Shown: positions 5,137 to 57,073 of the stretch, one piece after another
How the letters are laid out: each line of letters opens with the position of its first letter
How positions within the stretch are numbered: the stretch's first letter is position 1
Assembly (NCBI RefSeq): GCF_965363235.1
Contig: NC_134840.1
Coordinates: forward strand, 58,398,793 to 58,462,792
Source of the DNA: Mytilus galloprovincialis
Taxonomy: Eukaryota > Mollusca > Bivalvia > Mytilida > Mytilidae
DNA length: 64,000 nt
Direction: 5' to 3'
Translations under genes and position numbers: made by a program
Notes under the pieces: model-generated
The model's database searches: none
The model's input: the letters and a program-made list of their open reading frames with translations, nothing else
Told to the model about the DNA's origin: nothing

Positions 5137-5809
5137 CGTTCTCTCGCAGGACAACCATACCCACCGTGATAATGGTGTATATAGGGGAAAAAATTCTGAG
5201 AAATTCTGATTATTATGTCAATTTCTTAAATACTGTAAGAACTGGATAAACTAAGTTGGTTTGTCGAATGCTTGTAACATGTACATGTCATACTGTCAAA
5301 ATTCACCTGACCTTGACCTGATTTCCAGGATTCATAGTTGAATTGTTAGACGTTACGCGCGATGTTCGTACCTTTTACGTTTTATGCATGTTTCGTGAGT
5401 AAAACTGCTCTGTAGGTGCAGAAAAAAACGTATTTTAATTAGAAAAAAGATATTAATTTGCTGGATATAAACGTCCTTGTTCATTTATCTCCATTAAAAC
5501 AATATAAAACGCATTTGTTCGAGTTGATAAGCATTTAATTCTGGATTTTTTGTAAAAAATGGGTTGTCCCGGGTAACATTTGACGATGAAAACTGAAGTA
5601 TAAACCTTCTTTTCGCCTTCTTTTTTTGCCGATTTTCTTAATTTTTTTTTTGCCGCGAACCGCCATGAAATGGCAATACTTTATGACGTATTTGAATGGC
5701 GGCTACTGACGTCATATTCTGTTTCGCCAAGCAAATCGGCAAAGTTGCAGTGTGTCCTATCTCCATTTCCGAAACTAATTCACCGAAAACAGTCCAAAAA
5801 TACGGATAA

Positions 5810-5822
5810 ATGATGTCATCAG
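5810..5822 (+). CDS. Predicted short first coding exon of the transposase
   Basis: ATG ATG TCA TCA G is followed directly by a strong splice donor, GTGAGA. Joined to an acceptor 'tttaatttgcag' ending at 6598, it completes a codon (G+TT) and enters the open frame that runs through 6961. It gives the protein an ATG start that the exon at 6599 lacks at its own beginning. The alternative is initiation at the in-frame ATG at 6631. This is inference from splice signals and phase only. Confidence 0.5.
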
Positions 5823-6598
5823 GTGAGAAAATGATAAAGCTAGTATAATGTTGTTTTTCTGTAATTAATTAATTTCAAAAGCAAAATCGTTTAAACACAA
5901 AAACAAAAAAGATGATAAATTTTAAAATTTGGTGAAAAAATGTCACACGTTCATTTTTTGCAAAAACGTTGCGTACAGTCGTTATTAAAGTTAACTAGGT
6001 TTCGTTTTGCACTTGATTGTCGACAATGGCATTCTAATATAGACATGTTATTTTTCTAGTCTTTCCAAAATATCTATATTGATCTCCATAGCATTCGTAC
6101 TTTCCGAAAAAAAAATGTTTGAAAAATGGTGAAAAAGATGTCACACGCATTAAATTTATAACGGCGGCAACCTGACGTCGTTTCGAATTGTGAAAACAAC
6201 AAAATACGCGGCTCCATGAAAACACATTGAACAAGCGCACAACTTAGTCGATTGTCGGTGCATGCATTTTATAACTGTAAATATAGAGAGAGAGACTTTT
6301 TAAGCTACGATTTGATTTATCTATATGTTAATGATTTTTCCGATCTTTTTTGTTATTCCGTGATATCAATAAGTGTTGCCCTCGACGCAGAGCAGATTGC
6401 ATGTTTTATTTTGCCCGCAAATTTTAACTTGGGTGCAAAACTTTCAAATTTTTTAAAACAAGTAAAACGTGGGCACGTAATAGTTCGAGCATTTCTTTTA
6501 TGCGTTTCTATCTTTTAGCACTAAAGAGGCTTCTTTTAAACACGCGTTCCATTTTTCAAAACTCAATCATAATGTTTTGGTAATGGTTTAATTTGCAG

Positions 6599-6961
6599 TT
6601 AACAAAAGCACGTCTGCTTTGAGATTTGAAATGTGGAAGGAGAAAAAGGCACAGAAAAACAGAGAAAGGTGTAAACAAAACTACGAAATGAAGAAAAACG
6701 ACAGAATCAATGCATTAAAACAAAAATGTCACAATTGTGAATATTCCGAAACTTCCGCGGCCAAGAGAAAAAGAAAAGAAAGGAAGATAAAAGCTGATAA
6801 AAGACTTTATGAAACTGAACGGAAAAGAAAATATAGGAAATCTCAAAATAAAGATCCCGATATTCACACTATAAATGACATTAAAAATACGTTTTCGAAT
6901 AAGATGGAGAAAAGCAGGGCTGTTAAGGCAATGAAGAGAGCACTCCCTACAACACCGAAGA
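6599..6961 (+). CDS. Transposase N-terminal segment, basic, RNA/DNA-binding type
   Basis: This open segment codes for a very Lys/Arg-rich stretch (residues about 6-125 of the predicted 894-residue product). It has repeated K-x-R-Y and K-R-K-Y patterns, a CHNCEYSE motif, and ends with RALPTTPK. From memory, many animal 'uncharacterized' proteins of the same family start with this kind of basic region followed by LP-x-TP. The frame stops 8 bases into an inserted hAT-like element. If the insertion and one copy of its 5-bp target duplication are left out, the frame passes exactly into the segment starting at 8368. The segment is therefore the front half of the gene, not a separate small gene. In its present state the copy probably cannot make the full protein unless the guest is spliced or excised. 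Confidence 0.75.
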
Positions 6962-8362
6962 CAGGGGCGTAGTTAGGCCAAACTGATGTGTACGCAATGC
7001 CGGGGACAGAAGTCATACGGCGAGGGGTCTGGGGGCCGCTCAAGGCCCCCAGAAGCTCTAGAGTAAATGGTGCAAAATCCTGCATTCTCGCGATTTCCTG
7101 GGACTGAAAATGACCTCACAGAAATCTTATTTTCACGAGTAACAAGTCAACTTTTGAAAATAATTAAATTTGAAAAAAAATAAGTTAGAGAAAAAAAAAC
7201 TTCTAATGTGTAGTGGGTAGAGCTTATTTATATATTAGGTAACAATTAAAATATACAGTGCCACCACCATATATTTTAATTGCTACCTAATCAGTCTCAA
7301 CCCACTATGCATTCACTGAGAAAATCCAAATTTCTAAGCCTTAAAGGGTATTTTTTTTTATTGTGAAAATACATAAATAAATCGAATCACATTTCTCTAT
7401 GTTTTATTTTATAAGAGAACAAGCAGTCTTTCTTTTAGCTTTTAATTCTCAAAGTAAGTTCTGAAAGTCAATGACCATTTCCTTTCCAGTTATCCAAAAC
7501 CGTGTCTGTTGAAATTTGTTTTTCGTGGGATATGTTCAATAGAATTATCCCAGATAAACGAATGGATTTCATTGTATTTCTTTAGTCGTCTCATGGTACT
7601 GAAAGATTGTTCTATCGTTGCCGTCCAGACCGACATACATGCATATATGTTTTAAGTATTTTAAAGATTCCCGGGTATAAATCCTTGTTTATAACATCAT
7701 AGTTTGGAAACCTTTTACTATACATTTGTATATAAATACTTTTGAAGTCCCAAAATCTACAAGGAAAAGCTTCAAATTAAATCTGTAACTCCAAACTACA
7801 AAAACGAGTCTTTTATTTTTACAAAGCAAGGAAAACAAGCACTTTAAATTTTTACACATGGAGAAAAAGCACTTTTAATCTCGAGACACGTTTAATTAAA
7901 TTAACGAGGCACCCATCTTGCACGAACGAACATAAAATAAAAAAGTAAAAAACACGTTGATCGTAAAAAGAACGGCGAATAGGTTGCAAAAATATTACCC
8001 TTAATAGAACATCACGTTTTATTTCATCAGTCATTTTGAAATCTTCAGAAAAGATGACAGGGTAAGGAGGCATAGTAGACGCACTTATTGTATTCTGAAA
8101 CCCCGAGGACTCAGCTATTTTAATTGTTTGCATCAGCAGCACAATCACGATGCTGGTCCCGAAAATGTAAAGAGAAAACTAGTTTCCGGAACGGAATATA
8201 GTTACAAAGTAACTATTAAACATATTTTTTATAACACTTAAGTCTTTATAATTAATTCTATTACTTAAGTTTTATTCTAACTAGATTTACCATATTTTTA
8301 TTTTTGTCAAATTTTCGATGTGTACGCAACTGCGTTTTTGCGTACGGGTTGCTACGCGCCTG
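6962..8362 (-). mobile_element. hAT-like element with 5-bp target duplication, nested in the transposase gene
   Basis: The ends are CAGGGGCGTAG (6962) and, reversed, CAGGCGCGTAG (8362). Both are followed inward by a TGTACGCAA-like subterminal motif. The flanking GAAGA (6957-6961 and 8363-8367) is a 5-bp duplication. Removing the element and one duplicate restores the host transposase frame exactly, which confirms the boundaries. The minus strand keeps a piece of hAT-type transposase (7500-7636). The 1.4-kb length and broken coding content mark it as a decayed, non-autonomous copy. Repbase recognises hAT groups with 5-bp duplications (hAT5); assignment to that group is inference. Confidence 0.85.
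7500..7636 (-). pseudogene. hAT transposase C-terminal remnant
   Basis: Read on the minus strand, this short frame gives MSVWTATIEQSFSTMRRLKK. It matches the hAT dimerisation-region signature (usually '(S/T)xAxxERSFSxLRRLK'). It is only about 45 codons long, with no continuous frame on either side. It is evidence for the class of the surrounding element rather than a working gene. Confidence 0.7.
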
Positions 8363-8367
8363 GAAGA

Positions 8368-10676
8368 AAAGAGTAGCAGTAATGGCCACGTATTTAGACA
8401 ATAAACAATCCCCAACTGTTCAATCGCTTGAAAAATTAAAGTTTGTTATAACGCCAGAAGAAAAAACGGACATTCAACTTGGCAATGCTGTTCTGAATGA
8501 TCTCAAAGATATAGTCGACCAGGCAAAATTTTCAAGATCTGATTCGGCAAGAACTGCCTTAAGTGTAATCGTAGCAAGCACAAGTGGTAAAAACATAACT
8601 AAAGAACGAAAGAAAACTTTACTTTCAAGAAAGTTGGGACTACCCCTTAAACGAATATCGAAAGGAAAAAGAGTACGCACCCAAATATTTACTTCTGAAA
8701 AGTCATGTTGGACATATATTGAGAGAAAAACGAGGAAAGATGCTATTACTGACGATGTAAAGAAAATCGCGTACAATTTTTGGACAGATCCTAATACATC
8801 CCGTCCGTCTGGAAACAAAAATGACACGAAGCGTATCCGTATTGGCCCCAAACAATTTTTAAAACATCCTATTTATATACTCGATAAATCTCAAACTGAA
8901 GTGTTCAATGACTTTTGTATAAATAATCCAAACATAAATATGAACCAAAGAACATTTGAAAGATTAAAGCCGTATTTTGTTCGGTCAGCAAGACCAAAAG
9001 ATCGTGTTACCTGCTGTTGTCGCTATCACATAGAAGCCAGAACTTTGTTTTCAAAAACAATGGAGTTTAGAAAAAAATACACGATTCCGAACATTTTAGA
9101 TTTCGAGAAAAGCGTATACCCTATTTATGAACACCTGACTGATATCGCCGTTGCTACTCTATGTGATAAGGATCAAGTAAATAATTCTTACTCGAAGGCG
9201 TGTTTAGATCGTGAATGTAGTAAATGTGGACTTTCGTTATTAAAATTTACGGACGAAGAGTTGAATGTTTCGGATCATGCTCCCAATGCATCTTGGGAAC
9301 GGTACGAATATATCACTGTGAATTCAAAGAAAAAACTTACACTTGTCAGAAAATGCACTAAACCGGGTGAAATGTTTAATTACTTTAGAGAACTTTTAGA
9401 AAAATTTGCTGGACATCAGTTCCGTGCACAGTGGCAAAATGCACAACTTAAATGTTTGAAAGAAAACTTATTACCAAATCACAGTATTATAATTCATGAC
9501 TATTCCGAAAACTACGGTTGCAAAGAAAAGTTTGAACTTCAACAAACTTATTTTCAGCGCACTGAGGTATCTATTCATGTGTCCGTAATCTATCGACATG
9601 CAATTTTGGAAGTAGACGGAATAGAAAGTTTGCCGGATATTCCATGCATTATTACTGAGCATTTTTTTGTAATAAGCCCGGATGAGAAACATGACCAATT
9701 TTTTACCCAAAAAGTTCAAACCCTTGTCAAGGAGTATTTAGATACGATTCAATATGATGTAAAAGTTATTCATGAGTTTACTGACGGTTGTCCGGTTCAG
9801 TATAAGTCACGAAATTGTTTTGGAATGTTAACCGACATTTGTTCCAAACACGGATATGAACTTTTCATTCGAAATTATTTCGAAACTTCGCACGCAAAGG
9901 GACCTCAGGACGCAGCCGGTGGCTTTTTAAAGAATCAAGTAGACATGGCTGTTTTTCGCGGGAAGGAAATAATACAATCTGCGAACGATTTTTTTAAATA
10001 TTGCGAGGAACATTTGAAGGACACTAAGTCATTGTATTGTAAGCGCCGAATATTTAGATATGTCGAGGGTATAGATCGTGACACAATATCTTTTAAACCC
10101 GTTCCTGGTATTAGAAGTCTTCATCAAGTTTTTTCTTCTTTGAACGATGCTAATTTGACAGTTAGGTACCTGTCATGTTATTCTTGTGAAAACTGTTTGG
10201 TTGGTACTTACAAAAACTGCATGAATAATTCCATTGGGAGTAAGGCGACCGTACCGATAGTTGTCGAGAACAACCGAACCCGCCATTCGGGTCCCGAAGA
10301 ATCCACGGAAAATTATGAAATGGAAGACCTGATTACACTTGGCACAATACTGGCAGTATACACTGATGAAGCAGATTCAAATTATTACCTTTTAAAAGCA
10401 GATGCTCGCCCCGAAACTCTTAAAAAGGACACCACTGATGATTGGGGCGTAACTTACGTAAAGGGATCCAAAGTTGTTCGTGGTTTATACTTTGACCAAA
10501 CAAAAAAACTGTTGTCGTATAAACTATTGGATAAGAAACATTCCATCATTTCCATTGCATCTGTTATTTACATTTCACCAACTCTTCAATGTTCGACGCG
10601 TGGAACTGTAACTCTTCCGGAAACTACACATCTTGACATTTTATCAGTATTGGATGAAATGGAAGGAGTACAATAA
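8368..10676 (+). CDS. DDE-like transposase core and C-terminus, unclassified family
   Basis: The frame stays open for 769 codons and ends at TAA 10674-10676. It belongs to a widespread animal family of uncharacterised transposon proteins. Signatures, numbered on the predicted 894-residue protein: a cysteine-rich VTCCCRYHIEA motif in the first third; HDYSENYGC with a candidate catalytic Asp at 503; EFTDGCPVQYKSRN with Asp 598; and TSHAKGPQDAAGGFLKN with Asp 640. That spacing suits a DDE/RNase-H-like triad. A second cysteine cluster, CYSCENCLVGTYKNC, lies about 85 residues further on and looks zinc-binding. The apparent start at 8304 is an artefact: the first 22 codons of that frame belong to the inserted hAT element and its duplicated target. 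The stop codon lies inside an AATAAA (10672-10677), a possible polyadenylation signal. Catalytic assignments are by pattern, not by alignment. Confidence 0.8.
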
Positions 10677-11399
10677 AGTTATTGTTTAAAAACTTCTTTC
10701 TTCTATAGTTATATCCCCCAACAAAAAAAGTTTTGGGCTATACAGGAACCATCATGTCCTTCTGTCTGCCCATTTTTCTTGTTAGTGGTTATCCTTGTAA
10801 ATTAGTTTATGGATATTAATGAACTTGACACAACGTGATGTAGTTGTTACTGTAGGACACTAGTTATAGATGGGCATGCAGGGAAATAGATTGCTTAGCT
10901 AAATATTACAATATATAGCTATAGGATATTATATATAATAGTCTTGTTATGTAAGTGCAACTTATTCTAAAACGTTTATTGGATTTCAATGAAACTTTAC
11001 ATTAGTGTAGTATACTGTGTGTATAGGATGTGCATAAAAAATAATAATGTAGTCTGACAATTTTTCTTGAGATAATCCTAATAATTTGAGGGGGGAAGGG
11101 GAGATGATCGTGACCACAGCTCTCGTTTTACCTGTATTAGAATCACATTAAAATGAATCATTTTAAAAGAGGTCAAATGGTTTGCTAAAAGTGATCATAT
11201 TTATTTGTTTTGGGAATACATATCATTATAGTACAAATGTTATTAACGTTACTTATTCTAGAAGTATTTTTGTAACGTCTGAACCATAAAAAACGTCCGA
11301 TTTTAGCGATAACGTCTGTTACGCTTATAGGCACGAACATCGCGCGTAACGTCTTAAATAAACGTTTTCTTAATTTTTGTTTTTAAAGTATAAGCTGTA

Positions 11400-21700: not shown

Positions 21701-24700
21701 ACATATTGTTTCAATCAAAGAAATATGTACAATAAAGTAAAATAAAATATTGTATCGCAAGAAAAATAAAATGTTACTGCGAGCAACTAATCCTATATCT
21801 GTGTTTGTCTTGTTGATAGCCTATTGAATTTAGAGATTAAATACTTTAAAATTTGGACGAGCAGGGTGAGGGAGAATTTAATGAAACTCTTGAATATATA
21901 CATATTTCAATCTGCTTTTTTTTTGGAAATGGTATCAGAACCTTGAAAATACATGATTTTTTTTTTTAATGTTTATAGTTCAGAATGACTAAAATTAATT
22001 GTGAAATTTCTGTAAACTGAAATAAGCATTGATGGTATTATTTACTTTTCTGTACTTGTTTCTTGTCTTCTTCTTTCATCTCTACTTGGTCCTGCATAGG
22101 ATCTTGGCCTTTCCTCTCTGTAGCTAAAAATATGAAAAGAAACATGATGCATTTCTGCTAAGATATTTCTGTTGCTGCTATTGAAAGTATTATAATACCA
22201 ATTTGGAAAATATAGTCGGACAATATAATGTGATGTAAAGTTTGAATAAACATTGGAATATGTACAAAATGTTAAAGATTTTATTGGAAACAAAAAGAAC
22301 CTAACTGGATGTTTCAGCGACAAAAAACCCTTAAAATATTTGCAATTAATTAATTTATGAAAAGAACCAATACTTTTACAATACAATTCTTTATCCAGAC
22401 AAAATGTAGAAGGTCTTCAGCAACAAACACAATTTTCACCTTACAGCAAGATTAATATAACAAAAGGCATTGACTTGAGCTGTGTTCTTTAACATTAAGT
22501 TTGTTTGTTGGTAGCTTTATTTACTATCTATTTCAGAAATATTGGTTTATCTATAAAATTATCAACATTTACTCTGAATTCACTACACACAGAATGCTAC
22601 TTTTGATATTTATTGCTTAAAATTCCATCTATTTACAAATACATATTCAAATAAATTTCTTTAGACAGTTTCAATTAAATTAATTTTTAATTAAAGTTCA
22701 GAATGGTTTCACTTATGAATGCCAATGAAGTATACTCTTTGAAATTCAAATCAGAAATAACAAGTGAAACTGCGAGCTACTGCTCACTGATGATACCCCC
22801 GTCGCAAGTGGATAATATCAATAGTGTAAAAATATGCAAGTGTTCGGTAAACAGGAAGTTGTCGAGTGATGAATCTGAAAACACATCACACGGTATAGCT
22901 GACTTATAAAAATCCTGAAACCAAATTTTAGAAATCCTTGTATTGTAGTTCCTGAGAAAAATGTGACGAAAATTTTTAACTTGGTTATCATGTGTAAAAT
23001 CATACACATGTTCGGTAAACAGGAAGTAGTCGAGTGATGAATCTGAAAACGCATCACACGGTATAGCTGACTTATATAAATCCTGAAACCAAATTTCAGA
23101 AATCCTTGTATTGTAGTTCCTGAGAAAAATGTGACGAAAATTTTCAACTTGGCTATCATGTGTAAAATCAGACAAGTGTTCGGTAAACAGGAAGTTGTCA
23201 AGTGATGAATCTGAAAACGCATCACACGGTATGGCTGACATATATAAATGTTGATACCAAATTACAGAAAGGGTGGATGTGTAGTTCCTGAGAAAAATGT
23301 GACGAAAGTTTCATGGGACGGACTGACTGACGGATTGATGGACGGACGGACTGACGGACGGACTGACAGACAGAGGTAAAACAGTATACCCCCTTTTTTA
23401 AAGCGGGGGTATAATGACAGACAGAGGTAAAACAGTATACCCCCCCTTTTTTAAAGCGGGGGTATAATTATACATGTTATGAGTAAAAACAAGTACATAC
23501 GTAAACAAAGGGCTATTTCAAAGCAACACAAACAGAAAGTAAAAGCAAAGAAGACCATATATGTTAAAAAGAAGTATTTTAGTAAACATCAATGCTGCTT
23601 CATTAAACTTGTAGTCCTTCATTCCTAGTCATTTTGTCTTCTTAATTTCAAAATGATTACACAATGCATTTTTTTTAATCATTTTGGTAATACACAAAAG
23701 TATAAGATATATCAGTGTAAGTATCAAAATAAAAAGTTATAAAATCCAACACCAACAAGATTCCATTACAAGGAAATCTAATTAATGTTAGTGTGTTTTC
23801 TTAGTCTAATATTGCTTGTATATATGTATAGGATTGATAACCTTAACATGAGTGAAACATGCATCAACCTACCCTCTATCTCTGTAATCCCACTCCCTGT
23901 CTCTGTCCCAGTCTCGTCCTGACCTTGGACGACCTTGTGAAGATCGAGAGTCCTTGGATGATCTTGGTCTATCATATTTATCATATTTATCATCCTTTGA
24001 TCCTCTCGAGTCTTTTCTTTCTGGTGCATCATCCCACTTTCCACTTCTACCTTTGTCTTCCTGCTTAGGTTCCTTCCCTTTACCAGACTCTGTTCCCTTC
24101 TTTTCATCTAATTTTGACTTATCTTCTGATTTCTCCTCTTTTGAAGATTTAGGTTTCTGATCTAGAAGTGCAGCAGCTATTTTGTTACTTTTTTCTCTTT
24201 TTTCTTTCTCTCTTCTCTCCTTTTCCCTGTTTTCTTTGGAGAATCTAAGGTTTTCCCTTTCTTTCTTGCTACTCTCACTAAATTTATCTTCTTTTGGCTT
24301 GACATCTTTTGCTCCATCTTTCACTTTCTCCTTTGTGCTATCTTTATCTAATTTTTTGTCATCATCTTTTTCGGGCTTTTTGAGAACCTGCTAAGAAAAT
24401 ATCATATTCTGTGTAATTCAAACATGTTTTTTTATTATCAAATAATAGCATTTAAAAAAAAAAAAGATTATCTCCCTGTAATTTATTAATATGAATAAAA
24501 GACCATTTCTGTCACTGCCAAGATAATTAAAAGCTGTGCCATGAGCGCATGATACACCCGTTATATTTTCAAAGAATAAAGTTCAATTACTTCTCAATGT
24601 CATATTAGAAATTTATGAAAATCAAAAGGGAGCTTACATCGATAGATATAAACAATTCACCAAAGTTTCATGAAAATTGGTGAAAACTTTTTTGAGTTAT

Positions 24701-27700: not shown

Positions 27701-30700
27701 AACCACATCTTCTTATTTTTATATTTATGTCTTTAATAGTTGAAAAGTTGGTAATGAATAGTGACACACCTTTTGATGGTAATAAACATTTAAATCAAGT
27801 ATTTTTATCCAACTGTATGTAGTATTCAATATATAGAATTGATACAATTTACTACTGTAACATTGATTTTCTGGTTATTTAATTTTAATTAAATTGTAAT
27901 GTTTCACCTTTAAAATTTGAGTGACAATTATTCTGATAGTGGGAATAAACAACAAAACTCCAATTGATGAATATAGACCTTTGTTGGAACCCTTTAGCAA
28001 AAGATAACGCACCTTATGATAGTGGTGAACACTGCCACCAAGTATCAGCAGTAAACTTCTGGGTAACTACAGATATAGAGTGAACAAAATTTATAAATGT
28101 GCATCTTAGATGGCAAACAAGATGGTGGCTGATCTTTAGCATGGGTTTCACTACCAAGGTCAAGAGGTGTAAAGTGTGAAACAAAACTAGTGACTATCCT
28201 ATCTTACCTTTCATATCTTTCTCTTTTAGTTCAAGTTCCTCCAGGTAAGCCTCTATTGTCTGTGTTTCCTCTGCCTCTTCATTTTGTAAATATTCCAAAA
28301 ACTTCACATAATCTGGATCTGTAGCAATAAAATACATGAATTTAAAAATCAATGGAAAAAGGATACTAGAGTTAAACAGATTATATATAGTCTTTCAAGA
28401 AAATTTTAAGCTTCATCTAATCACAGAGCTCTCCTTCACCCTTCAAAGAGATTGCAGTTGAATATTTCCTCATTTTGAGAACCATAGATAACTATTCATG
28501 AATCATCTAGACACAAAACACATATTTACATTTAGACTTTCGACTGAAATTTCATATCCATCACTGCAGTGGTATTAAAAAGGAGAACAGCATTACTGTA
28601 TTTATGTATTTATCTTGGTTTTAGGAAGTACACCACTAATTAATGGCCCCATTGCTTTCTATGTTAAATTCCTCAATTTCGAGTGGTCACAGCTCTTTTA
28701 TCTTAAGTTCAAATAAAGTGACAATCATTACATGTCAAAGCAACACCTTCTGGTGTCCTGTACTGAAAAAATCAACATACCTTACATTGCATATAAGAAA
28801 GAACTGGTGCCCGGAACTTCGGATGTACCAAAACAGGTACGTCCGATCTGACAAAAAGGCAAAATGTACCCTCCTTTTTAAATTTCATGCCATTTTTTTA
28901 TTATTCAAATTTGTCAGTCAAAAATTGTTCTACAATGATCACCAGTCAAGCAGCTTTCATTTGATACCAAAATTAATAAAATACTCTAAATATTTTGAAA
29001 GTTATATCCATGCGTAGGAACTATTTTGTGTTAAATATGTACTACTTTCTGGTATGTGCTTTCTGGCCGGGCCTGAATTAGTGGTGTTACATCTAAAGTT
29101 ATCATTACTGTTAACTAATAAAAAGCAATATGACTTTAAGCTGCAGTAAATTGATGTTAATCATGTTAGTATAAGTCCAAGCAAGTTATGCTTTAACAAA
29201 AGCCATTAAAGGAGAAAGCCTAAGATCTCAGAAAACAAGTCCACCCAAGAATCCATCACTTGCCTGTGTCCAGATCTTGAATCTTATCATTTCTTAGTCT
29301 ATATTTATATCTTAATGTTGTTTATTCCTTTTGCCAGTTCTTGATAGTCAGTTAAATGGTTTCACAACTTGTTTAGACTCTGTGAGGTTATAGCTTGAAA
29401 TAATGTCATGTACTGTATGTAGTTAGCTGAAGACTTTATATATAAACAAGAATGTGTCCAAAGTACACGGATGCCCCACTCGCACTATCATTTTCCATGT
29501 TCAATGGACCGTGAAAATGGGTAAAAAATATAATTAGGCATTAAAATTAAAAAGATCATATCATAGGGAACATTTGTACTAAGTTTCAAGTTGATTGGAC
29601 TTCAACTTCATCAAAAACTACCTTGACCAAAAACTTTAACCTGAAACTCGCACTTTCATTTTCTATGTTCAGTGGACCGTGAAATAGGGGTCAAAAGTTT
29701 AATTTGTCTTTAAAATTAGAAAGATCATATCATAAGGAACATATGTACTAAGTTTCAAGTTGATTGGACTTCAGCTTCATCAAAAACTACCTTGACCAAA
29801 AACTTTAACCTGAAACTCGCACTTTCATTTTCTATGTTCAGTGGACCAGGAAATAGGGGTCAAAAGTTTAATTTGTCTTTAAAATTAGAAAGATCATATC
29901 ATAAGGAACAAATGTACTAAGTTTCAAGTTGATTGGACTTCAGCTTCATCAAAAACTACCTTGACCAAAAACTTTAACCTGAAACTCGCACTTTCATTTT
30001 TTCTATGTTCAGTGGACCGTGAAATAGGGGTCAAAAGTTTAATTTGTCTTTAAAATTAGAAAGATCATATCATAAGGAACATATGTACTAAGTTTCAAGT
30101 TGATTGGACTTCAGCTTCATCAAAAACTACCTTGACCAAAAACTTTAACCTGAAGCGGGACAGACGGACGGACGGACGGACAGACGGACGAACGAACGGA
30201 CGCACAGACCAGAAAACATAATGCCCCTCTACTATCGTAGGTGGGGCATAAAAAGAAGATGTGGTATGATTGCCAATGAGACAACTATCCACAAAAGACC
30301 AAAATGACACAGACATTAACAACTATAGGTCACCGTACAGCCTTCCACAATGAGCAAAGCCCATACCGCATAGTCAGAAAAGACCCCGATATGACAATGT
30401 AAAATAATTCAAACCAGAAAACTAACGGCCTTATTTGTATAAAAAAAATGAACGAAAAACAAATATGTAACACATAAACAAAGGACAACCACTGAATTAC
30501 AGGCTCATAACTTGGGACAGGCACATACATAAATAATGTGGTTATGTTAAACATGTTAGCGGGATCCCAACCCTCCCACTAACCTGGGACAGTGGTATAA
30601 CAGTACAACATAAGAACGAACTATAAAAATCAGTTGAAAAAGGCTTAACTTATCAGATGGACAAAAATACAAGCAGACTTGGGGTAATTGTAATCATTAA

Positions 30701-31901: not shown

Positions 31902-34900
31902 CCGACCTACCGACCCTATTTTTCAAAATGATGTTACCGGAAACACATATCTTTTTTTTTTAGGCCTTATATCATCCATATTTTAACTTCCATAAAGTGC
32001 ACCTTGAAACACATATAAAGTCTGGAAGAGGTAAGAAGACAAACAGCAAACTCTTCATAAAGCTTTATTCAATTGAAGTCAAAATAATTCAGAGATCAAT
32101 CATGATGAAGTGTAATGGGTCAAACCAGTGGCACAATGTTCATGTATGTAGTGAACTTTTGTGGTTTATTAAATAAATGAGGTTTAACGTTATCATTTTA
32201 TAATATATCAAACCTAATCCATAACCCTTTCCTCCATAATGACGCCTTTTGACGCCACCCCCTTTACTCCATAATGACGCCTTTTGACGCCTGTGTAGTA
32301 CCTCAGTTGAAATGCTTCGACTCCAAAATGTCTGCATCAGACTCAAGAAAAATTGTATCCCCTATGAAAAGGAGATTCATGAGAATATCTGACTTGAATT
32401 TCATTGATGAAATATTCGTTTTCACAATGCATTAACACTTTAAACCTTATGATTTTTTTTACTGAAAAAATTCCTATGCGAATCAAGTATGTTAAAAAAA
32501 AAAATTCTATGGAGGAAAGGGTTAATGCTATAGTTATATTAGACTTTTATTCATTCACATCATTCAAAATGGTTTTTTTTTAATTCATTGTAATCAGATG
32601 TAATCATGATTACTTTGCCAATGTAATCATTAATTTAATCAGAAACTTTCAAAAATGATGTAATCGTTAATTTAATTTAATCGTACAAATGACAAAGTAA
32701 TTGTAATTTAATCAATTACATTGAAAGTAATCGGACCCATCTCTGAATACAAGTGGACGTGGCCGGGTACTTGTACATCCTGACAACAAAAAGACACTAG
32801 GAACAGATCTGAGAGTACTCGCAGTTATCTGAAAGCTAGTTCAAAGCCACTAACAACTAATAAATCTAGATGATCCATAGGGCGCAGCATTATACGACCG
32901 CAGAGGTCGAACCCTGAACAGTTGGGGCAAGTATGGACACAACATTTAAGCTTGATACAGCTCTGAATTTGGATTGCGATTAAATAGTTGACACAATATA
33001 GGTTTCTGACACAGAATGAATGTGGTCTAAGAACTTAAGCTTAAAAACTTAAAAATTTTAAATTGGACATTTTACCTATTATGGTCCAATATCCAAATTC
33101 AGCATATCATAGAACCCCAAGAATTCAATTTTTTATGAAATCAAATAATGTTCAATTTTAGACCCTCAATGTGGACCAAATTTGATAACCGGGCCCAAAT
33201 ATAAAAAATCTAAATACATGGTTAGATTCAGCATATTGAAGAACCCCATTGTTCAATTTTTGTTGAAATCAAACAAAGTTTAATTTTGGACCCTGATTTG
33301 GACCAACTTGAAAACTGGGCCCATAATCAAAAATCTAAGCACATGTTTAGATTCAGCATATCAAAGAACCCTAAGAATTCTATTTTTGTTAAAATCAAAC
33401 TAAATTTAATTTTGGACTCTTTGGACCTTAATGTAGACCAATTTGAAAACAGGACCAAAAATTAAGAATCTAAATACACGGTTAGATATGGCATATCAAA
33501 GAACCCCAATAATTCATTTTTTGATGAAATCAAGCAAAGTTTAATTTTGGCCCCTTTTGGCTCCTAATTACTAAACTGTTGGGACTAAAACTCCCAAAAT
33601 CAATCCCAACCTTCCTTTAGTGGTCATAAACCTTGCTTTAAAATTTCATAGATTTCTATTTACTTATACTAAAGTTATTGTGCAAATACCATGAAAAATG
33701 CTTATTTGGGACCTTTTTTTGGCCCCCAATTCCGAAACTGTTGGGACCAAAACTCACAAAATCAATCCCAACCTTCCTTTTGTGGTCATAAACCTTGTGT
33801 TAAAATTCCATAGATTTCTGTTTACTTATACTAAAGTTATTGTGCAAAAACAAAGAAAAATGCTTATATGGCCCCTTATTCCTAAACTGTTGGGACTAAA
33901 ACTCCAAAAATCAATCCCAAATTACCTTTTATGGTCATAAACCTTGTGTTTAAATTTCATAGATTTCTATTTACTTATACTAAAGTTAAAAGGTGAAAAC
34001 TAAATGTCTTCAGACGATGACGACGATGCCAATGTCATACCAATATACGACCAAAACTCAAGATTTTCAATGTTTGCGGTCGTATAAAAATCATGCATCT
34101 AAGACTAAACTATCCATCCGTACACATCCAACATCCAATGGATTTAAATTTTAAGTTGAAAGGACTTCAACTTCATCAAAAACTACCTTGACCAAACACT
34201 TAAACCTGAAGTGGGACAGACCGACAAACGGACGAACAGACCAGAAAACAAAATGCCCATAAATGGGACATAAAAATAGCCGGTATTTCCATGAGTAGCC
34301 CTACCTTGTTCAATGCTTCCCATTTTAACATCAACTTTCTTTGGTTTTCTCCTGGGTACTTTCTGGTATGGAGCAAGCTCAACAATAGCAGAATATTCAT
34401 TACCTGTAAAACGTGAATACAAATAATACATATCTATGCTTGTTAAGTAGGATTCTATTCCAGCATGTTAATAGGGGGCTCACAGTATAAATTAAAATAA
34501 TGTGGACACAATATTTTTGATCTTTTTAATGCATATCAGTACTAGGCAAAATGTAATTATAGGAATGTTACTGTTTTTAAATCTTGGAAACTGTATGAAT
34601 TATACAAAACAAGTCATAATTCTAATTAAACATGCTAATCAAAAAACATAGTTATCTTATTGGCAATCATATCACATCTCATATTTTAAAATAGGGTCAC
34701 CGATAATTATATCTTGAAAGGGATTAGCAATGAATCTTTCTCACATTCAAGGGTGATAACTATGTGACTAATACTGAATGTTACATACATTTTTGCAAAT
34801 TAAATTATAATATTGACCAAATTTATGTCTTAAAATTCCACAAACCTTTTCCATCCACAAACACATAGCCATCAAATTGGTCTCTGAAGTTGTAAACATC

Positions 34901-39030: not shown

Positions 39031-42000
39031 ATGTGGTGGGAAACTATACCATCAGCTGTCATAGTTTGGGCGGCTTTGTTTGCCCCTTGTGTCATTGGAT
39101 ATGGTTCAAATTACTTGAGAAAAAATGGAAAAGTATGTTGGCTTGATCTTAAGTCTTCTTTTCAATCTCATGCCTGTTGATGGGGAAGCAAGTCATTTCG
39201 TACCTCTGCCATTTCGTACCCAAATCTGCCATTTCGTACCCAACATTTACCATTTGATACCCACGATATTATCCATTTTGTACCTACAATATTATCCATT
39301 TCGTACCCAACATTTACCATTTGTTCCATTGTTTACCTTAGCACGAGATTACTCTGACGTCCAACGGGCGTTTGCCAGACAAGCTGGGGCCGTGGGACGT
39401 CAGAGCTTGTCCCATATCAAAAAGTGGATATTTGCCCACCCTAAATATATGCGCTGCTTTGTCGCTTCTGATGCCGACTGACGGCCTTGGAATGATATAA
39501 CTCGGGCATCAATCTGTTCATTTTTCATTAATCTCTTCATTTATGTAAGTTTCACCTACATGTACCTGCCAACCTTTATTTTTCCATATTTTAACAGTTT
39601 TCACAGTGACCCATCGATTTCGGCATTTTGCCTTTCATTTTCAAAGATAATCACGTGACCACAAGAAAACAGTGATGATTTATGCAAATGACCATAATGT
39701 AACACCTCGTTCATTTACGATGCAAGTTATCTAAATGTCCGAGAGCTTCCGATTGTAACGTGGTCGGAACTAAAGGCTTCATACCGATCTCCTGTAAAGG
39801 AGGTGAAAAAAATAAATATTTGCATATTTTGAGTCTCGAGACCACGAACTCTCTCGTAACTTGACGTCCATTTGAAAGTGAAAGTCAAAATGCTGAAATT
39901 GATGGGTACCTGTGAAAACTGTTAAAATATGGAAAAATAAAGGTTCACAGGTAGGTGAAACTTACATAAATGAAAAGAAAAATGAATAGATTGATGCCCG
40001 ATTTATATAATTCCAAGGCCGTCAGTCGGCATCAGAAGCGACGAAGCAGCGCATCTATTTTGGGTGGGCAAATATCCACTTTTTGATATGGGACGAGCTC
40101 TGACGTCCCACGTCCCCAGCTTGTCTGGCAAAACAGCAGTTGGACGTCAGAGTAATCTCGGACTATGTTTACCTATGATATTATCCATTTTGAACCTACG
40201 ATATTATCCATTTCGTACCCTATGGGCCAAATGCATTTTCCATTTTGTACCTCATGGACTTAATACATGTTAGCAATTTCGTATCATATTTTTGTAAAGT
40301 TTTTCATGATTTTAATGTTTTTTTTTAAATATATCATATTAAATTGAATTATGCATCTAGACGTAACAATTTTATAAAGACTTGATGATTGGTTTGATTA
40401 AGCAGCACTTGGAAATTTCAATAGTTATAATAACACTTTGTTTGTTTGCATGATTTGATCTTTATTTATTGTTAAACATGTGGAGTATACAGTTTTCACC
40501 AAGACTCATAACACATAAAAATGAAATGTGATACATAATAATCTTCCATGACTAGCATGAGATACAAAATGCATTTGGCATACATAGAAATCTTCCATGA
40601 GGTACGAAATGGTATTACATATAAATCTTCCATGAGATACAAAATGCATATGGCATACATAGAAATCTTCCATGAGGTACGAAATGGTATTACATATAAA
40701 TCTTCCATGAGGTACGAAATGGCATACATATTAATCTTCCGTGTGGTACGAAATAGTATTACATATAAACCTTCCATGAGGTACGAAATGGCATACATGT
40801 TAATATTCCATGAAGTACAAAATGGTCAGGGTGCGAAATGGCCAGGGTACGAAATGGTTAGGGTACGAAATGACTATAAATCGTTGATGGATCACAGACA
40901 CCTGTATCTGTTTTAATTGTACATTGTAAAAATTTGTATGTGTATGTAGATGCCAAATCTTTGTCCAGCCTCAAATTATTGGTCTGTGTCCTTTCCTCAG
41001 TTCTGTGTTCCATGACATCATGATTAAAATCTGTGATTCTTTGTCCAGCCTCAAATTTGTGTCTTCCATCAATCGGCATCATACGTCTTATTTTGCATTT
41101 AGCAATTTTAACTTTTTATTATTACATTAGAGCTTGAGCTCTTGATCACTGATGTGAAACTGATCGTGGTAATTGCAATTACCACAAATGGCACATTCCT
41201 AACATGACATAGGTACTGGTAGAAATAAATACTGTACAATGTATCAATTTGATCAATTTGACAACTATTTTGAGGCCCAGCTGCTAATGACATGGTCCAT
41301 TGACTTTAATACAATTACAACTTTATAAATGTTAAGATTTCTGATTAAGTGATAATGATAGAAACCACTTCAACTACTGTAGACAACAATATTTTCTATA
41401 AAGTCTGCCTGTACATCTCAGTTTATCGAACAATTAAATACATGTATAAAGCAATGTTGCTGTCCATCAGATTGTCTTTTTCTGAGGTAAATGCAGACAA
41501 GTGGGACATATCTCTGTGTCAACTGATTATTGTCAGTAACGTCTGCTAACATAATATTTGATAAAGGATTGTGTCATGGAAACAATGAAGGTAATGGCAC
41601 CATATCATTTTTATGCCCCACCTACGATAGTAGAGTGGCATTATGTTTTCTGGTCTGTGCGTCCGTTCGTCTGTCTGTTCGTTCATCCGTCCGTCTGTCT
41701 GTCCCGCTTCAGGTTAAAGTTTTTGGTCAAGGTAGTTTTTGATGAAGTTGAAGTCCAATCAACTTCAAACTTAGTATACATGTGCCCTATGATATGATCT
41801 TTCTAATTTAAATGCCAAATTAGAGTTTTGACCCCAATTTTACGGTTCACTGAACATAGAAAATGATAGTGCAAATTTCAGGTTAAAGTTTTTGGTCAAG
41901 GTAGTTTTTGATAAAGTAGAAGTCCAATCAACTTGAAACTTAGTATACATGTTCCCTTTGATAAGATCATTCTAATTTTAATGCCAAATTAGAGAATTTA

Positions 42001-43175
42001 TTCCAATTTCACGGTCCACTAAACATAGAAAATGATAGTGCGAGTGGGGCATCCGTGTACTGTGGACATATTCTTGTTAATCACTGCAATATTTTTTTCG
42101 CTAAATAATAAAAATTTCTACATTTTATGGCTTAATTAACACAGGCACTTGCATTTTACTATTAAAAAAACTATGTACTTCTCAAGTTCTGACAATATAA
42201 TATTAAGGTATATATACATGTAGTTAAATTTAAATAACAGACAAGTGACAGTGTGTATTACCCATGATTAAGGTATATTAAAAACCAAAACTGCATTGAC
42301 AGTGCAATACTTTAATATTTAGTTTATCCTAAATCATCCCTTTCCTTGTTACCCTTCACTACAGGTCTGCATATTTTTGTCATGTTTATTGTGTATGTTA
42401 TATTAAATTACTTGTGTGAAATTAAAATATGTGTATTGTCAGAGCAAGTGCACTTTTTTCTTTTTTTTACATCCATGGAAATAATATTTATTTTCAGTGG
42501 GAGAATAGAAACTGGTTAACAAACAAACATGACCATGCAGCATATCTTAGAGATTTATACATTACAGGAAGTGAATTTATACCTAGAGTAAGTAATATAA
42601 TATCATGAAGTTGCTTAAACAAATATTTTTCTTTTTGGCCTTTATTTAAAATAGTTGTATTTGCTATTTTCAAGAAATTGCTTATTTTGAACACAATATA
42701 TATGCCTAAATTCGTCTCAGCTGATCTATTAAAAAGCATTAACCACTTGATTTAATAATTATTATTATTTTTAAATTGATTGATAAAAAGTCTGAAGATG
42801 TGGTATGATTGCCTATAGGACAACTATAGACTCCAGAAAAAATTATGTAGATGTTAGCAACTAACATATTTTTTTTTTAGCATTCAGTTGGAATTAATTT
42901 CTTCAAATGAATTTAAGCAGGTGGATAATTTGCAAGCTTTTTTTGTGGTTAGGAATTGAAGTTGTTCATAAATTTAAAAAAAATCTGTTTCTACTACTAA
43001 TGTCATGACTTAAGTATATTTTATCTGTAAATAATTAAAAATGTACCAAAATTATTTTCAAATAAAGATTATAATTATTTTTAATGTTGTTTAAAATTGT
43101 GGTCTAAGAGACTAAGACTTATCATGATAATTTCTTTTCCAGGGATTAGAGGCCATTCCAGATGAAGAAAAATGA
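39031..43175 (+). CDS. NDUFA1: NDUFA1, complex I MWFE subunit (3 coding exons)
   Basis: NDUFA1 is a small accessory subunit of mitochondrial NADH:ubiquinone oxidoreductase, anchored in the inner membrane by one N-terminal helix and needed for complex I assembly. Coding exons are 39031-39132, 42498-42587 and 43143-43175. All junctions are GT-AG in phase 0, giving 74 residues (human 70). The protein starts MWWETIPSAVIVWAALF, the counterpart of the human MWFE start, and residues about 5-24 form the membrane helix. The C-terminal half has YLRDLYITGSEFIPRGLEAI, aligning with human [20 protein letters not shown]. There is no cleavable presequence, as in the family. Intron 1 (3.4 kb) is filled with repeats. 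The gene is too finely split and short to stand out as an open frame. No canonical AATAAA was found close after the stop. Confidence 0.95.
39190..40880. repeat. TACGAAATGG/CCATTTCGTA motif arrays in both orientations
   Basis: The motif CCATTTCGTACCC recurs every ~15-35 bp at 39190-39330, continues at 40165-40280, and reappears inverted as GGTACGAAATGG every ~35-65 bp at 40540-40870. In the inverted half, units like 'catagaaatcttccatgagg' alternate. The opposed arrays could pair over hundreds of bases. The foldback element 39344-40160 interrupts the left array. All in NDUFA1 intron 1. Confidence 0.8.
39344..40160. mobile_element. Foldback element with ~300-bp inverted arms
   Basis: CGAGATTACTCTGACGTCCA (39344) is mirrored at 40160. 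The arms stay alike for nearly 300 bp ('gggacgtcagagcttgtccc', 'caaatatccactttttgata' reversed, 'ggccgtcagtcggcatcag', 'ccatattttaacagttttca'). The spacer is about 230 bp. No coding frame and no exact target duplication. Long arms suggest a Mutator-like or foldback type (inference). Confidence 0.82.
41608..42078 (+). repeat. TATGCCCC-family dispersed repeat, full copy
   Basis: It starts TTTATGCCCCACCTACGATA, has the CGTCCGTCTGTCTG stretch, two ~170-bp units with 'ttaaagtttttggtcaaggt', and ends 'gtggggcatccgtgtactgt' + 'ggacatattcttgtt'. ATGCCCCAC at the start and GTGGGGCAT near the end are inverted to each other. It lies in NDUFA1 intron 1 in sense orientation; the two overlapping open frames are repeat-derived. 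Confidence 0.88.
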
Positions 43176-44850: not shown

Positions 44851-45672
44851 ATAAAATTACATAACAGGTGTGTTCTAGTATTTTTCTTAATCAGACCTAC
44901 TACTATATGCAAGAGGAGTGTTGTGTTCATATCTCCAATAAAAAAACATTTAGTCTGGTGACTGAGAGGAGTGGGTGTTCACATCCTTCTCAGTCTGAAA
45001 ACAATATTAGGAGGAGGGAAGCGTTCTTATCTCCTCTGCAAAGGGTGCAATCAACAGTTTTTTTCTATGACGTCACATTTTGAGGGACCATGCATAAGTG
45101 ACCCTTAGTGGTGGACTGATTAATAAAAATACTTGTATAAAACTAGATATCACTGGAATCAGAATGTTCTCTAGTTTATAATGAAATAAAAATAATGTGT
45201 ACTTTTAATATATTAAAAATATTCCATCCAATGAACATGGGGATAAAAGGTCTAATTTGAACATAAAAAAACTTGAAACCAGGTCATGTGCACACCCATG
45301 AAGACATGATCCATGCACATTTTACATAATCAAAACTGTATGAAATTTGTAGGTTTTTACCTGGCCTTTCAAAAAAATCATGTTTCAGGATACGGTTTTC
45401 TGCTCCGAAAAGAGCTACAGTGGCTGCAAATAAGTTTTCAATTTTCACTGCCAAAAAAACAGGATGTTTACAGTGTTGTCTCCCCTCAAAACATGTAAAG
45501 TTAATATAATTTTTAAAATTATTTCAATCATTCAACCTGTTTTAATTCAAAGCTAATTAACTAATTTTTACAATCAAATACAAAAAACATGATACTTTTT
45601 CACCAATTGAGTAAATAAACAGGGGTTTCCCTCCATGGTTATTTTTAGTCGGGGAATAACCCCTAGTTTTTT

Positions 45673-46826
45673 CGTGCTTAAATATAAATACTAAGAAAAC
45701 TAAAGTGTTGATATTCAACAAGGCAGGCAGACATATCTCTCAAAAATTTATTTTCAACAAAGATGAGCTGGAGTGTGTATCTAATTATAAATATTTGGGT
45801 ATCCAATGTAATGCATCATGTTCTTTTTCATATGCTCAGAATGATTTATACCAAAGAGCCTTAAAAGCATACTTTAAACTATGTAATGATTTTTTAGTGC
45901 ATAATCCTACTGTTAAAAATGCAATTCATGTTTTTGACCATACAATAAAGCCTATACTTTTATACGGGTGTGAAATTTGGGGATATTTCAATCCCTTTAC
46001 TGCACGTTTAAAAAAAGAAAACATATCGGTGGATACAATTTACTCAAGGATACTTTGTGAAAAACTTCATATTAAATTCTGCAAATATATTTTAGGTGTT
46101 AATAGAAAAAGTACAAACTTTGCAGTTTTGTCTGAATTAGGCCGTTTTCCACTTCACTATGATATAGTCAAACATGTTTTAGGATATTGGCATCGTTTAG
46201 AAAATATTGGCTCATCATTTCCCTTGTTAAAAGCTGCATATAATTGTTCTAAAAAGCTATTTGAAACAAAAAAACCCTCTTGGTATGGATCAATTAATAT
46301 TTTAAGGGAAAAAATGTCAGGCATAGAAAAGCATATTCCTGAAAAATATTCAACATTTAAACTACACTGTGGTCAGATTGTTAAGGGATACTGTACTGCA
46401 TTGTGGAAAAAACAGCTAGATATACATAAAGATGGTAAACTACGAACTTATGTAACATTCAAGTGCAACTTCGGTTTTGAAAATTATTTGTCAATAATTC
46501 AACATTTTGAGCAAAGGAAATGTATTACTAGATTAAGAATATCTGCTCACAAATTGCAAATTGAATCTGGTAGATACCAGGGTACTCTTCGACAAAACCG
46601 AATTTGTCTCAGGTGCACCTCAGGTGAGGTTGAGGATGAAGTTCATTTTTTATTTAAATGTGACACGCATTTATTAAAAAGAGAGGAATTGATGCAAAAT
46701 ATATTAAAATCATGTCCAAACTTTCAAAATTTAAATATTGATAACAAATTAATTTGGATAATGAATAATGAGGATCCCAATGTACTATTTGCATTTTATA
46801 AATATATAGAAGATACTAAGAATTGA
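45673..46826 (+). CDS. LINE reverse-transcriptase C-terminal fragment (5'-truncated non-LTR retrotransposon)
   Basis: An open frame (LNINTKKTKVLIFNKAGR at its start, stop at 46824-46826) covers the end of a non-LTR RT protein. N-KTK-V-IF-N and YKYLGIQCN mark the end of palm/thumb. LLYGCEIWGYF, CKYILGVNRKSTN and LSELGRFPL are the usual downstream motifs. CLRC...EDEVHFLFKC is the C-terminal cysteine/histidine knuckle. The catalytic RT core and endonuclease are missing, as expected from 5' truncation on insertion. About 380 codons without a stop suggest a fairly recent insertion. It looks CR1/Jockey-like, but the clade is uncertain. Confidence 0.82.
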
Positions 46827-56100: not shown

Positions 56101-56331
56101 AAATGCTCGAAGTTTCGCTTTATATGTTGGAACGTTTTTCAAAATGTCAGACTTTAGAACTTGTTCTGTCACTTTTCGTATGCAGTGAAACCGCCATACA
56201 TCATTATTTTCATCGTTCAAAAACTTATACCATTTCTTACACACTAAGGAACATGTTCTTAAATCAGATATATTTAAATAGGAGAAAATTGATTCTAAAA
56301 TCTGAGGAGGAAGGTTGGCTGCTGCAGCCAT
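53133..56331 (-). CDS. FBXO45: FBXO45/FSN-1, F-box and SPRY domain protein (3 coding exons)
   Basis: This is the substrate-receptor subunit that works with the MYCBP2/Highwire/RPM-1 ubiquitin ligase and SKP1 to control synapse growth and axon maintenance. Coding exons (minus): 56331-55756, 53919-53844, 53242-53133. Junctions are GT-AG and phases match; 253 residues, close to Drosophila Fsn (255). The F-box is at residues about 3-50 ([37 protein letters not shown]). The SPRY domain runs from about 85 to the end: [94 protein letters not shown]. These match the family almost residue for residue. The start is the only ATG before the F-box; an earlier in-frame codon at 56364 is TTG. No odd features. 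Confidence 0.97.
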
Positions 56332-57073
56332 AACGGCGAGACATCCGGTCAATATAGCTACCAAAATGTGAGATACAATAAAATGGACAAATTGGTATTC
56401 TATTTATTAGAATACCGACGATAGAATATTGGTCTGATATCTTTGTAGGTTACAATTTGTAATAATTTTGACATTTGGACATAGTAGCAACTTGTATAGC
56501 TACGTAATGATTATAAGCAATGGACACATTCATTTGTACGTTGCATTCTTATTTTTAACTTTTAGGTTTATGATTAAATTTTTAGCAATCACGTGTAAAT
56601 TCATTCAACGAGATTCAAGATGTCTGCGCCCATGTTTTGAAGTGAAAAAGTTAAAATTATGTTTAAAAATCAAGAAATATATTCGATATTGAAGGAAAGG
56701 TAGACAAAAATGCCACAACTTAACAGAAATGTCATAGTTCCCTAAACGAAGGGCTCATGAGACACTGTTAAACGAATTATCATACTTTTTTCATAGATAA
56801 ATAAGATATTTTGCTAAAAAAAAGGTTTTACAAGTTTTTCTATTTATACAACTTATAATATCCCTATCCACCACAAGTACTGGACATCTCAGTTATTCCT
56901 GTTAATTTTTGACATCATAACAGTTAATTGATTATTGAATGAAATCAATATTTCCAAGGACACGGGTTTATTTGTCACAATAATATGAGGTAAGCATAAC
57001 CTGTGAATGGGGATTAAGTCTGTATGTATTATTTTTTTTTAATTCAAACATGTTTATGAAAGAAACATTAATA
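56332..57073. promoter_or_regulatory. FBXO45 upstream region
   Basis: This is spacer upstream of the FBXO45 start codon and should hold its 5' UTR and promoter. A small perfect hairpin GGTATTCT-(ATTTATT)-AGAATACC lies about 60 bp upstream of the ATG. No TATA box or gene recognised. Confidence 0.4.

Follow-up and report, generated by a model that had tools for sequence, protein, structure and literature searches.

Which kind of mobile element occupies positions 5349–11353 of the window, and does it belong to a superfamily that already has a name? The window is the whole stretch of 64,000 nt analyzed here from Mytilus galloprovincialis (assembly GCF_965363235.1, NC_134840.1, positions 58,398,793 to 58,462,792 of the forward strand). 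With a probability of about 90% the 6005 bp represent a DNA transposon that in its native state measures about 4.6 kb, encodes one DDD-type transposase and belongs to a broad superfamily. Its present length of 6.0 kb is due to a 1.4-kb non-autonomous repeat that landed in the gene.

Ends and target sites

The element is bounded by the inverted ends GACGTTACGCGCGATGTTCGT, which are perfect over 21 bp and agree in 23 of 24 positions overall, with a single A/G difference (left terminal inverted repeat at 5349–5372, plus strand; right repeat at 11330–11353, minus strand, located by comparison of the ends). This bears out the perfect 20-bp ends described in a first-pass annotation. With up to one mismatch, GACGTTACGCG occurs twice within the 64-kb window compared to 0.05 expected occurrences. 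Genome-wide, the 20-bp end was found 412 times with up to two mismatches and its reversed control pattern not once, so the proposed search for further copies sharing these ends was successful and inverted repeats common to dispersed copies, a general feature of DDE/D transposons, are present. Without the nested repeat the native element measures about 4.6 kb, and native elements across the lineages described below about 4.3–5.0 kb. The non-autonomous copies L042, L047 and L048 match the element over 23–43 bp at the ends only.

TTA adjoins both ends of the window copy (5346–5348 and 11354–11356), and the exact duplication read there earlier stands; as a target rule it does not hold. An exact 3-bp duplication was found in 18 of the 27 copies having both ends versus 5.4% of 702 mismatched pairings. 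The duplicated sequence varies and is mostly AT-rich, with TTA in 2 of the 18 cases and either TTA or TAA in 4; the TTA flanks expected at other genome copies are not the rule. The flank preference is instead the palindrome AAATGY-NNN-RCATTT. No exact 3-bp duplication was present in 9 of 27 pairs of the window lineage and in 7 of 17 pairs of a 47%-identical lineage, which counts against the reading and may be due to rearranged or mutated copies, or to ends from two elements. The ends L065 and L066, which lie 11 kb apart and have differing flanks (AAA and TAA), were left out of the pairs. In the 47%-identical lineage 10 of 17 pairs carry 3-bp duplications (control 3.7%) and one carries 4 bp. 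A distant lineage shows 4-bp duplications in 9 of 10 pairs (control 2.2%), and copies of its target repeat without the insertion exist for L120 and L121. Flanking identity of 8 bp was observed in none of the 27, 17 or 10 pairs. Shared ends and 3-bp duplications together support the DNA transposon proposed at the outset, here of the cut-and-paste type.

A nested repeat in the transposase gene

The gene had been described as a single spliced gene of a complete element. Its smaller gap at 5823–6598 (plus strand, GTGAG..TTGCAG) is a likely intron, and the C8 copy of the transposon has the same splice sites. The putative exon 1 in front of it (5810–5822, plus strand; MMSS and one further nucleotide) agrees with that copy in 13 of 13 bases and in the 5' splice site. 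Comparing the intron with that of the 63–64% family (L046) gives no reliable result, the DNA identity being 45–47%. The larger gap at 6962–8362 is a hAT-like non-autonomous repeat of 1401 bp with the ends CAGGGGCGTAG and CTACGCGCCTG. All 1,401 bp are matched at 88–94% by at least 22 other genome rows (40 of 1195 first-look candidates scored). Directly adjacent, at 6957–6961 and 8363–8367, lie two copies of GAAGA, read in the sequence and by comparison with the empty site: the C8 copy runs uninterrupted where the window copy holds the repeat. Of the 6,005 bp, 1,401 thus belong to a second, nested element that made its own 5-bp duplication. A genuine intron would agree with the joining of the frames on either side, but the stretch as bounded has neither a GT start nor an AG end, and its sharp ends as a dispersed repeat, the duplication bracketing it and its absence from the C8 copy rule this reading out for practical purposes.

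Since 6962–8362 is a nested repeat that the C8 copy lacks, the gene probably has a single intron (5823–6598, GT..AG) and a single break. The claim of a single spliced gene therefore survives for the probable intron and fails for the larger gap. As its coding sequence is interrupted, the element lacks an intact gene and in this respect cannot be called complete. Open-frame translation places a basic, Lys/Arg-rich N-terminal region in the first part of exon 2 (6599–6961, plus strand) and, together with relatives, the transposase body and stop in the second part (8368–10676, plus strand). The predicted length of 894 residues is reproduced by arithmetic from the three coding segments 5810–5822, 6599–6961 and 8368–10673. 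The motifs listed previously lie within a 768-codon open frame that extends from 8370 to the stop codon (10674–10676).

Conserved residues and database comparison

Residue counts are based on 33 rows, 19 of which are near-identical copies of one lineage. Three acidic residues are conserved in 9 of 9 lineages (all plus strand): D377 in HDYSENY (9498–9500) and D472 in TDGC..QYKS (9783–9785), each Asp in all 32 rows that have a residue there, and D514 in SHAKGPQDAAGG (9909–9911), Asp in 30 of 31 such rows and Asn in one. This conservation fits a DDD transposase with a predicted catalytic Asp triad. The spacings are 94 residues from D377 to D472 and 41 from D472 to D514 (83–94 and 36–41 across lineages). 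A different acid might serve as the third catalytic residue, for example E505, which 29 of 31 rows share but L122 and L123 do not. The CCCRYH motif (9012–9029, plus strand) is invariant as CCCR-x-H in 7 of 7 A1 rows, its middle Cys being Leu or Val in the three distant lineages. Equally invariant in these seven rows is a late Cys cluster of C603, C606, C609 and C617 (10176–10220, plus strand). Over 768 codons, window and C8 copies differ with a dN/dS of 0.19, which shows constraint on the coding sequence; between the window copy and L013 dS is saturated.

Neither the window protein nor the A1 profile gave a significant Pfam, NCBIfam or PDB match, in line with the earlier description of the family as unplaced. 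The window protein has a weak match to a PHROG of unknown function (phrog_10130, E 0.014). Leads only are weak matches to HTH_8 in one of the seven A1 rows (0.0055) and to zf_RING-like (0.04), as well as, in the L101 protein, to CxC5 (sub-threshold, E 0.065) and Agenet. Also a lead only is PDB chain 8xi2_U, found with the A2 profile at E 2.7e-6 in the basic N-terminal region, where no stretch passes alone. An AlphaFold2 model of 325 residues (window positions 9330–10304), built from the single sequence without an alignment to check for an RNase-H fold, reached a mean pLDDT of 32.6, and Foldseek returned no match at E ≤ 0.001. Scans of IMG/VR and GTDB prokaryotes with two short peptide patterns each confirmed no relatives.

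Related lineages

Protein and element comparisons place the window element, as one lineage among several, in a broad superfamily with recent activity. Profile alignment of two groups covered 517 columns (probability 100, E 8.2e-57). Two relatives, the 47%-identical lineage among them, have near-identical copies: five comparisons over 758 codons revealed between 1 and 6 differing nucleotides, and nine further copies of the distant lineage are 99–100% identical over the whole element. In the distant lineage, L101 has CACC..GGTG ends with 4-bp duplications. No constraint is visible within the young burst of the 47%-identical lineage, as dN/dS is 0.8–1.35 from a handful of changes. A vertnin origin of the OTU-fused lineage is conceivable; none of the literature matches listed names vertnin.

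Superfamily assignment

Placement was judged from Pfam, NCBIfam and PDB searches, and Academ was compared by description only. An AcademX-related DDE/D lineage of Academ without the nuclease has somewhat less than an even chance of being the correct assignment. The AcademX nuclease is XPG. Against Academ, no XPG or helicase Pfam match was found in the window protein, the seven A1 rows, L101, L122 and L123; the XPG link was also tried at genome level and not found, XPG_I giving three partial matches of 44–54 of 89 positions only. Proteins of the window transposase kind are common in aphids, whereas one aphid is reported to have 58 Academ elements without a full-length copy among them (PMC9783078), which counts against Academ as well. 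Duplication lengths speak for it: those of AcademX, which carries a nuclease, are reported as 3 or 4 bp (PMC10045372), equal to the lengths across the lineages here. Academ is also reported to be abundant in bivalves, with 100 curated consensus sequences and a mean length of 5565 bp (PMC10294476), compared to the native 4.3–5.0 kb here. That the element branches deeply within the CACTA/Chapaev/Transib (CMCT) group appears improbable. CMCT elements are reported to have mostly CA..TG termini and 2–5 bp duplications (PMC12730594), and Chapaev CAC..GTG ends with 3–4 bp duplications (PMC4079192); the duplication lengths here and the L101 ends are similar, and 9 of 9 lineages have a C(2)C pair after the second Asp, the CxxC lying 130–135 residues after D472. 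However, the H(3–4)H expected after the second Asp is missing from five of the nine lineages and located at unshared places in the other four, the window and 47%-identical lineages end in GAC..GTC in contrast to the CA..TG termini of L101, there is no fixed TWA site, and no Pfam transposase match was obtained.

The 3-bp duplication, with TTA at the window site, resembles PIF/Harbinger, which duplicates TWA, but here the triplet varies and one long protein without a Pfam transposase match is encoded. Varying 3-bp duplications also differ from the TA of Mariner/Tc1 and the TTAA of piggyBac and Kolobok. Sola and Ginger1 duplicate 4 bp, a length characteristic here of the distant lineage only, and Zator, whose transposase resembles that of ISAzo13, duplicates 3 bp, the length found in the window lineage; all three were compared by description only, and a Pfam transposase match was not obtained here. 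KDZ/Zisupton is similar in the late Cys cluster and the CxC5 match of L101, but Zisupton is reported to make 8-bp duplications (PMC12730594) compared to 3 or 4 bp here. The C/DxxH signature between the second and third acid of hAT, P, MuDR, Kolobok and Dada (PMC9587614) is absent: the residue three positions before H508 is Glu in 29 and Gly in 2 of 31 rows. A superfamily without a published name is a tentative reading, which the absence of significant Pfam, NCBIfam or PDB matches favors. No description was found among the literature matches listed (titles and abstract starts, most transposon papers lying outside this scope), and the motif strings gave no relevant literature match. On the other hand, Repbase probably lists so abundant a family under one name or another, and Zator, Ginger and Sola, among the 20 Repbase DDD/E superfamilies listed in PMC9587614, are set apart by the absent Pfam match alone. 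It is possible, at odds clearly below even, that these elements form an undescribed animal cut-and-paste superfamily characterized by the DDD triad with its 83–94/36–41 spacing, the late Cys cluster, lineages differing in 3- or 4-bp duplications, selection of a 15-bp palindrome by the window lineage in place of one set triplet, and, in some members, a fused OTU-like region and long tandem-repeat tails.

Proposed mechanism and significance

One protein of about 894 residues would combine a basic N-terminal part, the Cys-rich CCCRYH region, the DDD core and the late Cys cluster; its C-terminal stretch may form a small barrel. The transposase would bind the element ends, with D377, D472 and D514 as the predicted metal ligands in cleavage and strand transfer. 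Insertion of the two ends would be offset by 3 nt at a target of two-fold symmetry, and gap filling by the host would result in the 3-bp duplication, 3- or 4-bp duplications being made depending on the lineage. The lineages offer a natural system for comparing strand-transfer staggers of 3 bp and 4 bp inside one enzyme family.

No Pfam model was found for this large, recently active group of animal transposases, so its members are likely annotated as uncharacterized genes. If the assignment to Academ is true, the group reveals a form of Academ without its nuclease. The window copy probably no longer makes the transposase protein and could still be mobilized in trans; intact near-identical copies elsewhere make activity directly testable.

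Results and Discussion

The element at 5349–11353 of the window is a cut-and-paste DNA transposon; as an object it is ordinary in kind, and the group it belongs to is both unusual and little catalogued. Its inverted-repeat ends (21 bp perfect, 23/24 matching) and the TTA adjoining it on either side agree with the first-pass annotation. Within the window, GACGTTACGCG occurs twice (≤1 mismatch) against 0.05 expected. The proposed search for further copies with the same ends gave 412 occurrences of the 20-bp end in the 1.38-Gb genome (≤2 mismatches) and 0 of the reversed pattern. Among these copies, L054 is a deletion derivative in which positions 1–1192, the right end and two short internal stretches survive, and in the non-autonomous copies L042, L047 and L048 similarity is confined to 23–43 bp at the ends. 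Both kinds of copy would fit an enzyme that requires the ends.

TTA was also suggested as the target rule, which further copies contradict. Both ends were available for 27 copies (the window copy, 25 among the end matches listed, and L067 from the protein search); 18 carry an exact 3-bp duplication and nine carry none, compared to 5.4% (n=702) when left and right flanks were mismatched in pairing. Since the 18 exact duplicates vary in sequence (TAT 4, AAA 3, TAA 2, TTA 2; GAA, TGG, TTT, ACA, ATG, TCA and TTC one each), TTA is not the rule. Base frequencies over the flanks of the 27 pairs and of 14 single ends, 68 in all, show, outside the duplication on both sides, A.56, A.71, A.57, T.66, G.56, and then T.44/C.26 adjoining it; with only 27–37% G+C in the window, the G looks well above background. 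Together they form the palindrome AAATGY-NNN-RCATTT, a pattern both suggested by and read from this one set of flanks.

The protein of 894 residues could be reproduced from exon arithmetic, with a likely intron at 5823–6598, directly after ATGATGTCATCAG, whose splice sites are identical in a second copy on contig C8. The gene is not intact as first described: a nested repeat at 6962–8362, starting CAGGGGCGTAG, finishing CTACGCGCCTG and flanked by GAAGA on both sides, breaks the coding region. As the C8 copy is uninterrupted there, with a single GAAGA, the native element would measure about 4,600 bp once 1406 bp are subtracted from 6005, against 4,568 bp for the C8 copy. Apart from the window copy, at least 22 genome rows align to positions 1–1401 of the repeat at 88–94% (40 of 1195 candidates scored). 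Its ends and 5-bp duplication give a lead towards a hAT-like insert; 5-bp duplications are ascribed to hAT5 in PMC12730594. The C8 copy departs from the window copy at 75 of 2304 nucleotides, at a dN/dS of 0.19, so the protein was constrained before both arose.

The protein search of the genome yielded at least 59 matches, with 58 of 702 candidates scored. Those listed comprise the window lineage (92–97%), one lineage at 63–64%, and a remainder at 37–59%, mostly near 47%. For the 47% lineage (L017), 56 ends matching GACGTCGCGCAARATACTGG were counted (≤2 mismatches; 0 in the control), and its copies differ by 1–6 nucleotides across 758 codons in five comparisons. In this young burst dN/dS is 0.8–1.35 on few changes, with no constraint visible. 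Of 17 copies, ten show 3 bp identical (control 3.7%), one 4 bp, four 2 bp and two 1 bp. Their 34 flanks follow a related but distinct pattern beside the duplication (T/C, A/G, T/C, outward to inward). The one copy with 4 bp (L096/L097) carries the exact duplication AGGT, against 3 bp in 10/17.

In Pfam at E≤1, the 768-residue body went unmatched; the N-terminal piece gave two meaningless matches (0.67, 0.8), and three weak ones appeared, each to a single row, across the seven rows of alignment A1, which takes in six lineages at 42–64% identity. Nothing matched in NCBIfam. The single protein was unmatched in PDB, and a profile search there returned four weak, unrelated matches (best 0.04).

An alignment of 33 proteins points to three candidate catalytic residues: Asp occupies positions 377 and 472 (D377, D472) in 32/32 rows with a residue there, and position 514 (D514) in 30/31. 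Because a single lineage contributes 19 of the 33 rows as near-identical copies, lineages are the fairer count, and all three are kept in 9/9. The hydrophobic stretch SIIIHD precedes the first and VKVIHEFTD the second, while the third lies inside SHAKGPQDAAGG; spacings are 83–94 and 36–41 residues. This order is as expected for β1, β4 and the last helix of a putative RNase-H core. The transposase would recognise the element ends, cleave the DNA and join the ends to the target with a 3-nt stagger.

A wider search, using a hand-written consensus, found 150 genome matches (best 1.4e-41), including the window element at 6.7e-7. The element of the distant lineage L101 spans 4,970 bp, has CACCTATTCTCAGAATAAGTG at its ends and carries a frame of 878 codons; nine further copies align across the whole element at 99–100%, and another in two pieces. 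Nine of these ten (L101 and the nine copies) have a 4-bp duplication and one has none (control 2.2%). L101 is inserted in a dispersed repeat, of which L120 and L121 are copies without the insertion. In L122 (450–5588, minus strand, 1712 codons) and L123 (458–4711, minus strand, 1417 codons) the transposase is fused, within one very long frame, to an OTU-like region and a tandem-repeat tail. The L123 OTU-like match is below the Pfam cut-off (E 0.0017, 19.3 against 23.3 bits); L122 has no Pfam OTU match, and a GDGNCL motif similar to that of L123 was read in it by eye. Both tails are long, regular and open for hundreds of codons. By hhalign, A1 and A2 (L101, L122, L123) align over 517 columns (E 8.2e-57).

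Regarding the superfamily, a relationship to Academ has somewhat less than an even chance, at roughly 45%. As reported, AcademX agrees with the element's lineages in duplication length (PMC10045372) and in abundance and size in bivalves (PMC10294476), but its nuclease does not fit. Given this misfit and a comparison with Academ made on described features, the element is left unplaced; a superfamily without a name is somewhat less probable than an Academ relationship. Against the features reported, Chapaev/CMCT differs by an expected H(3-4)H that is not conserved across the element's lineages and by termini that the window lineage does not match, while the duplication sets apart the TA- and TTAA-specific groups and Zisupton. 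For Zator, Ginger1 and Sola the comparison covered the Pfam search, which gave no transposase match.

Elsewhere in the window, a coding exon at 55753–56403 (minus strand) combines F-box-like (E 4.5e-14) and SPRY (1.9e-5; 25.2 bits, cut-off 26.3) matches and probably belongs to a host gene, which we take to be probably of the FBXO45 type. A 388-codon open frame at 45660–46826 (plus strand), unmatched in Pfam at E≤1, resembles by eye the C-terminal portion of a LINE reverse transcriptase. Tandem arrays of 168–169-bp units lie at 22837–23311, 29478–30154, 41708–42041 and 61992–62327, and two arrays 33 kb apart (408–1001 and 33717–33988) share similar units, TGTTGGGACCAAAACTCCCAAAATCAAT and TGTTGGGACTAAAACTCCCAAAATCAAT.
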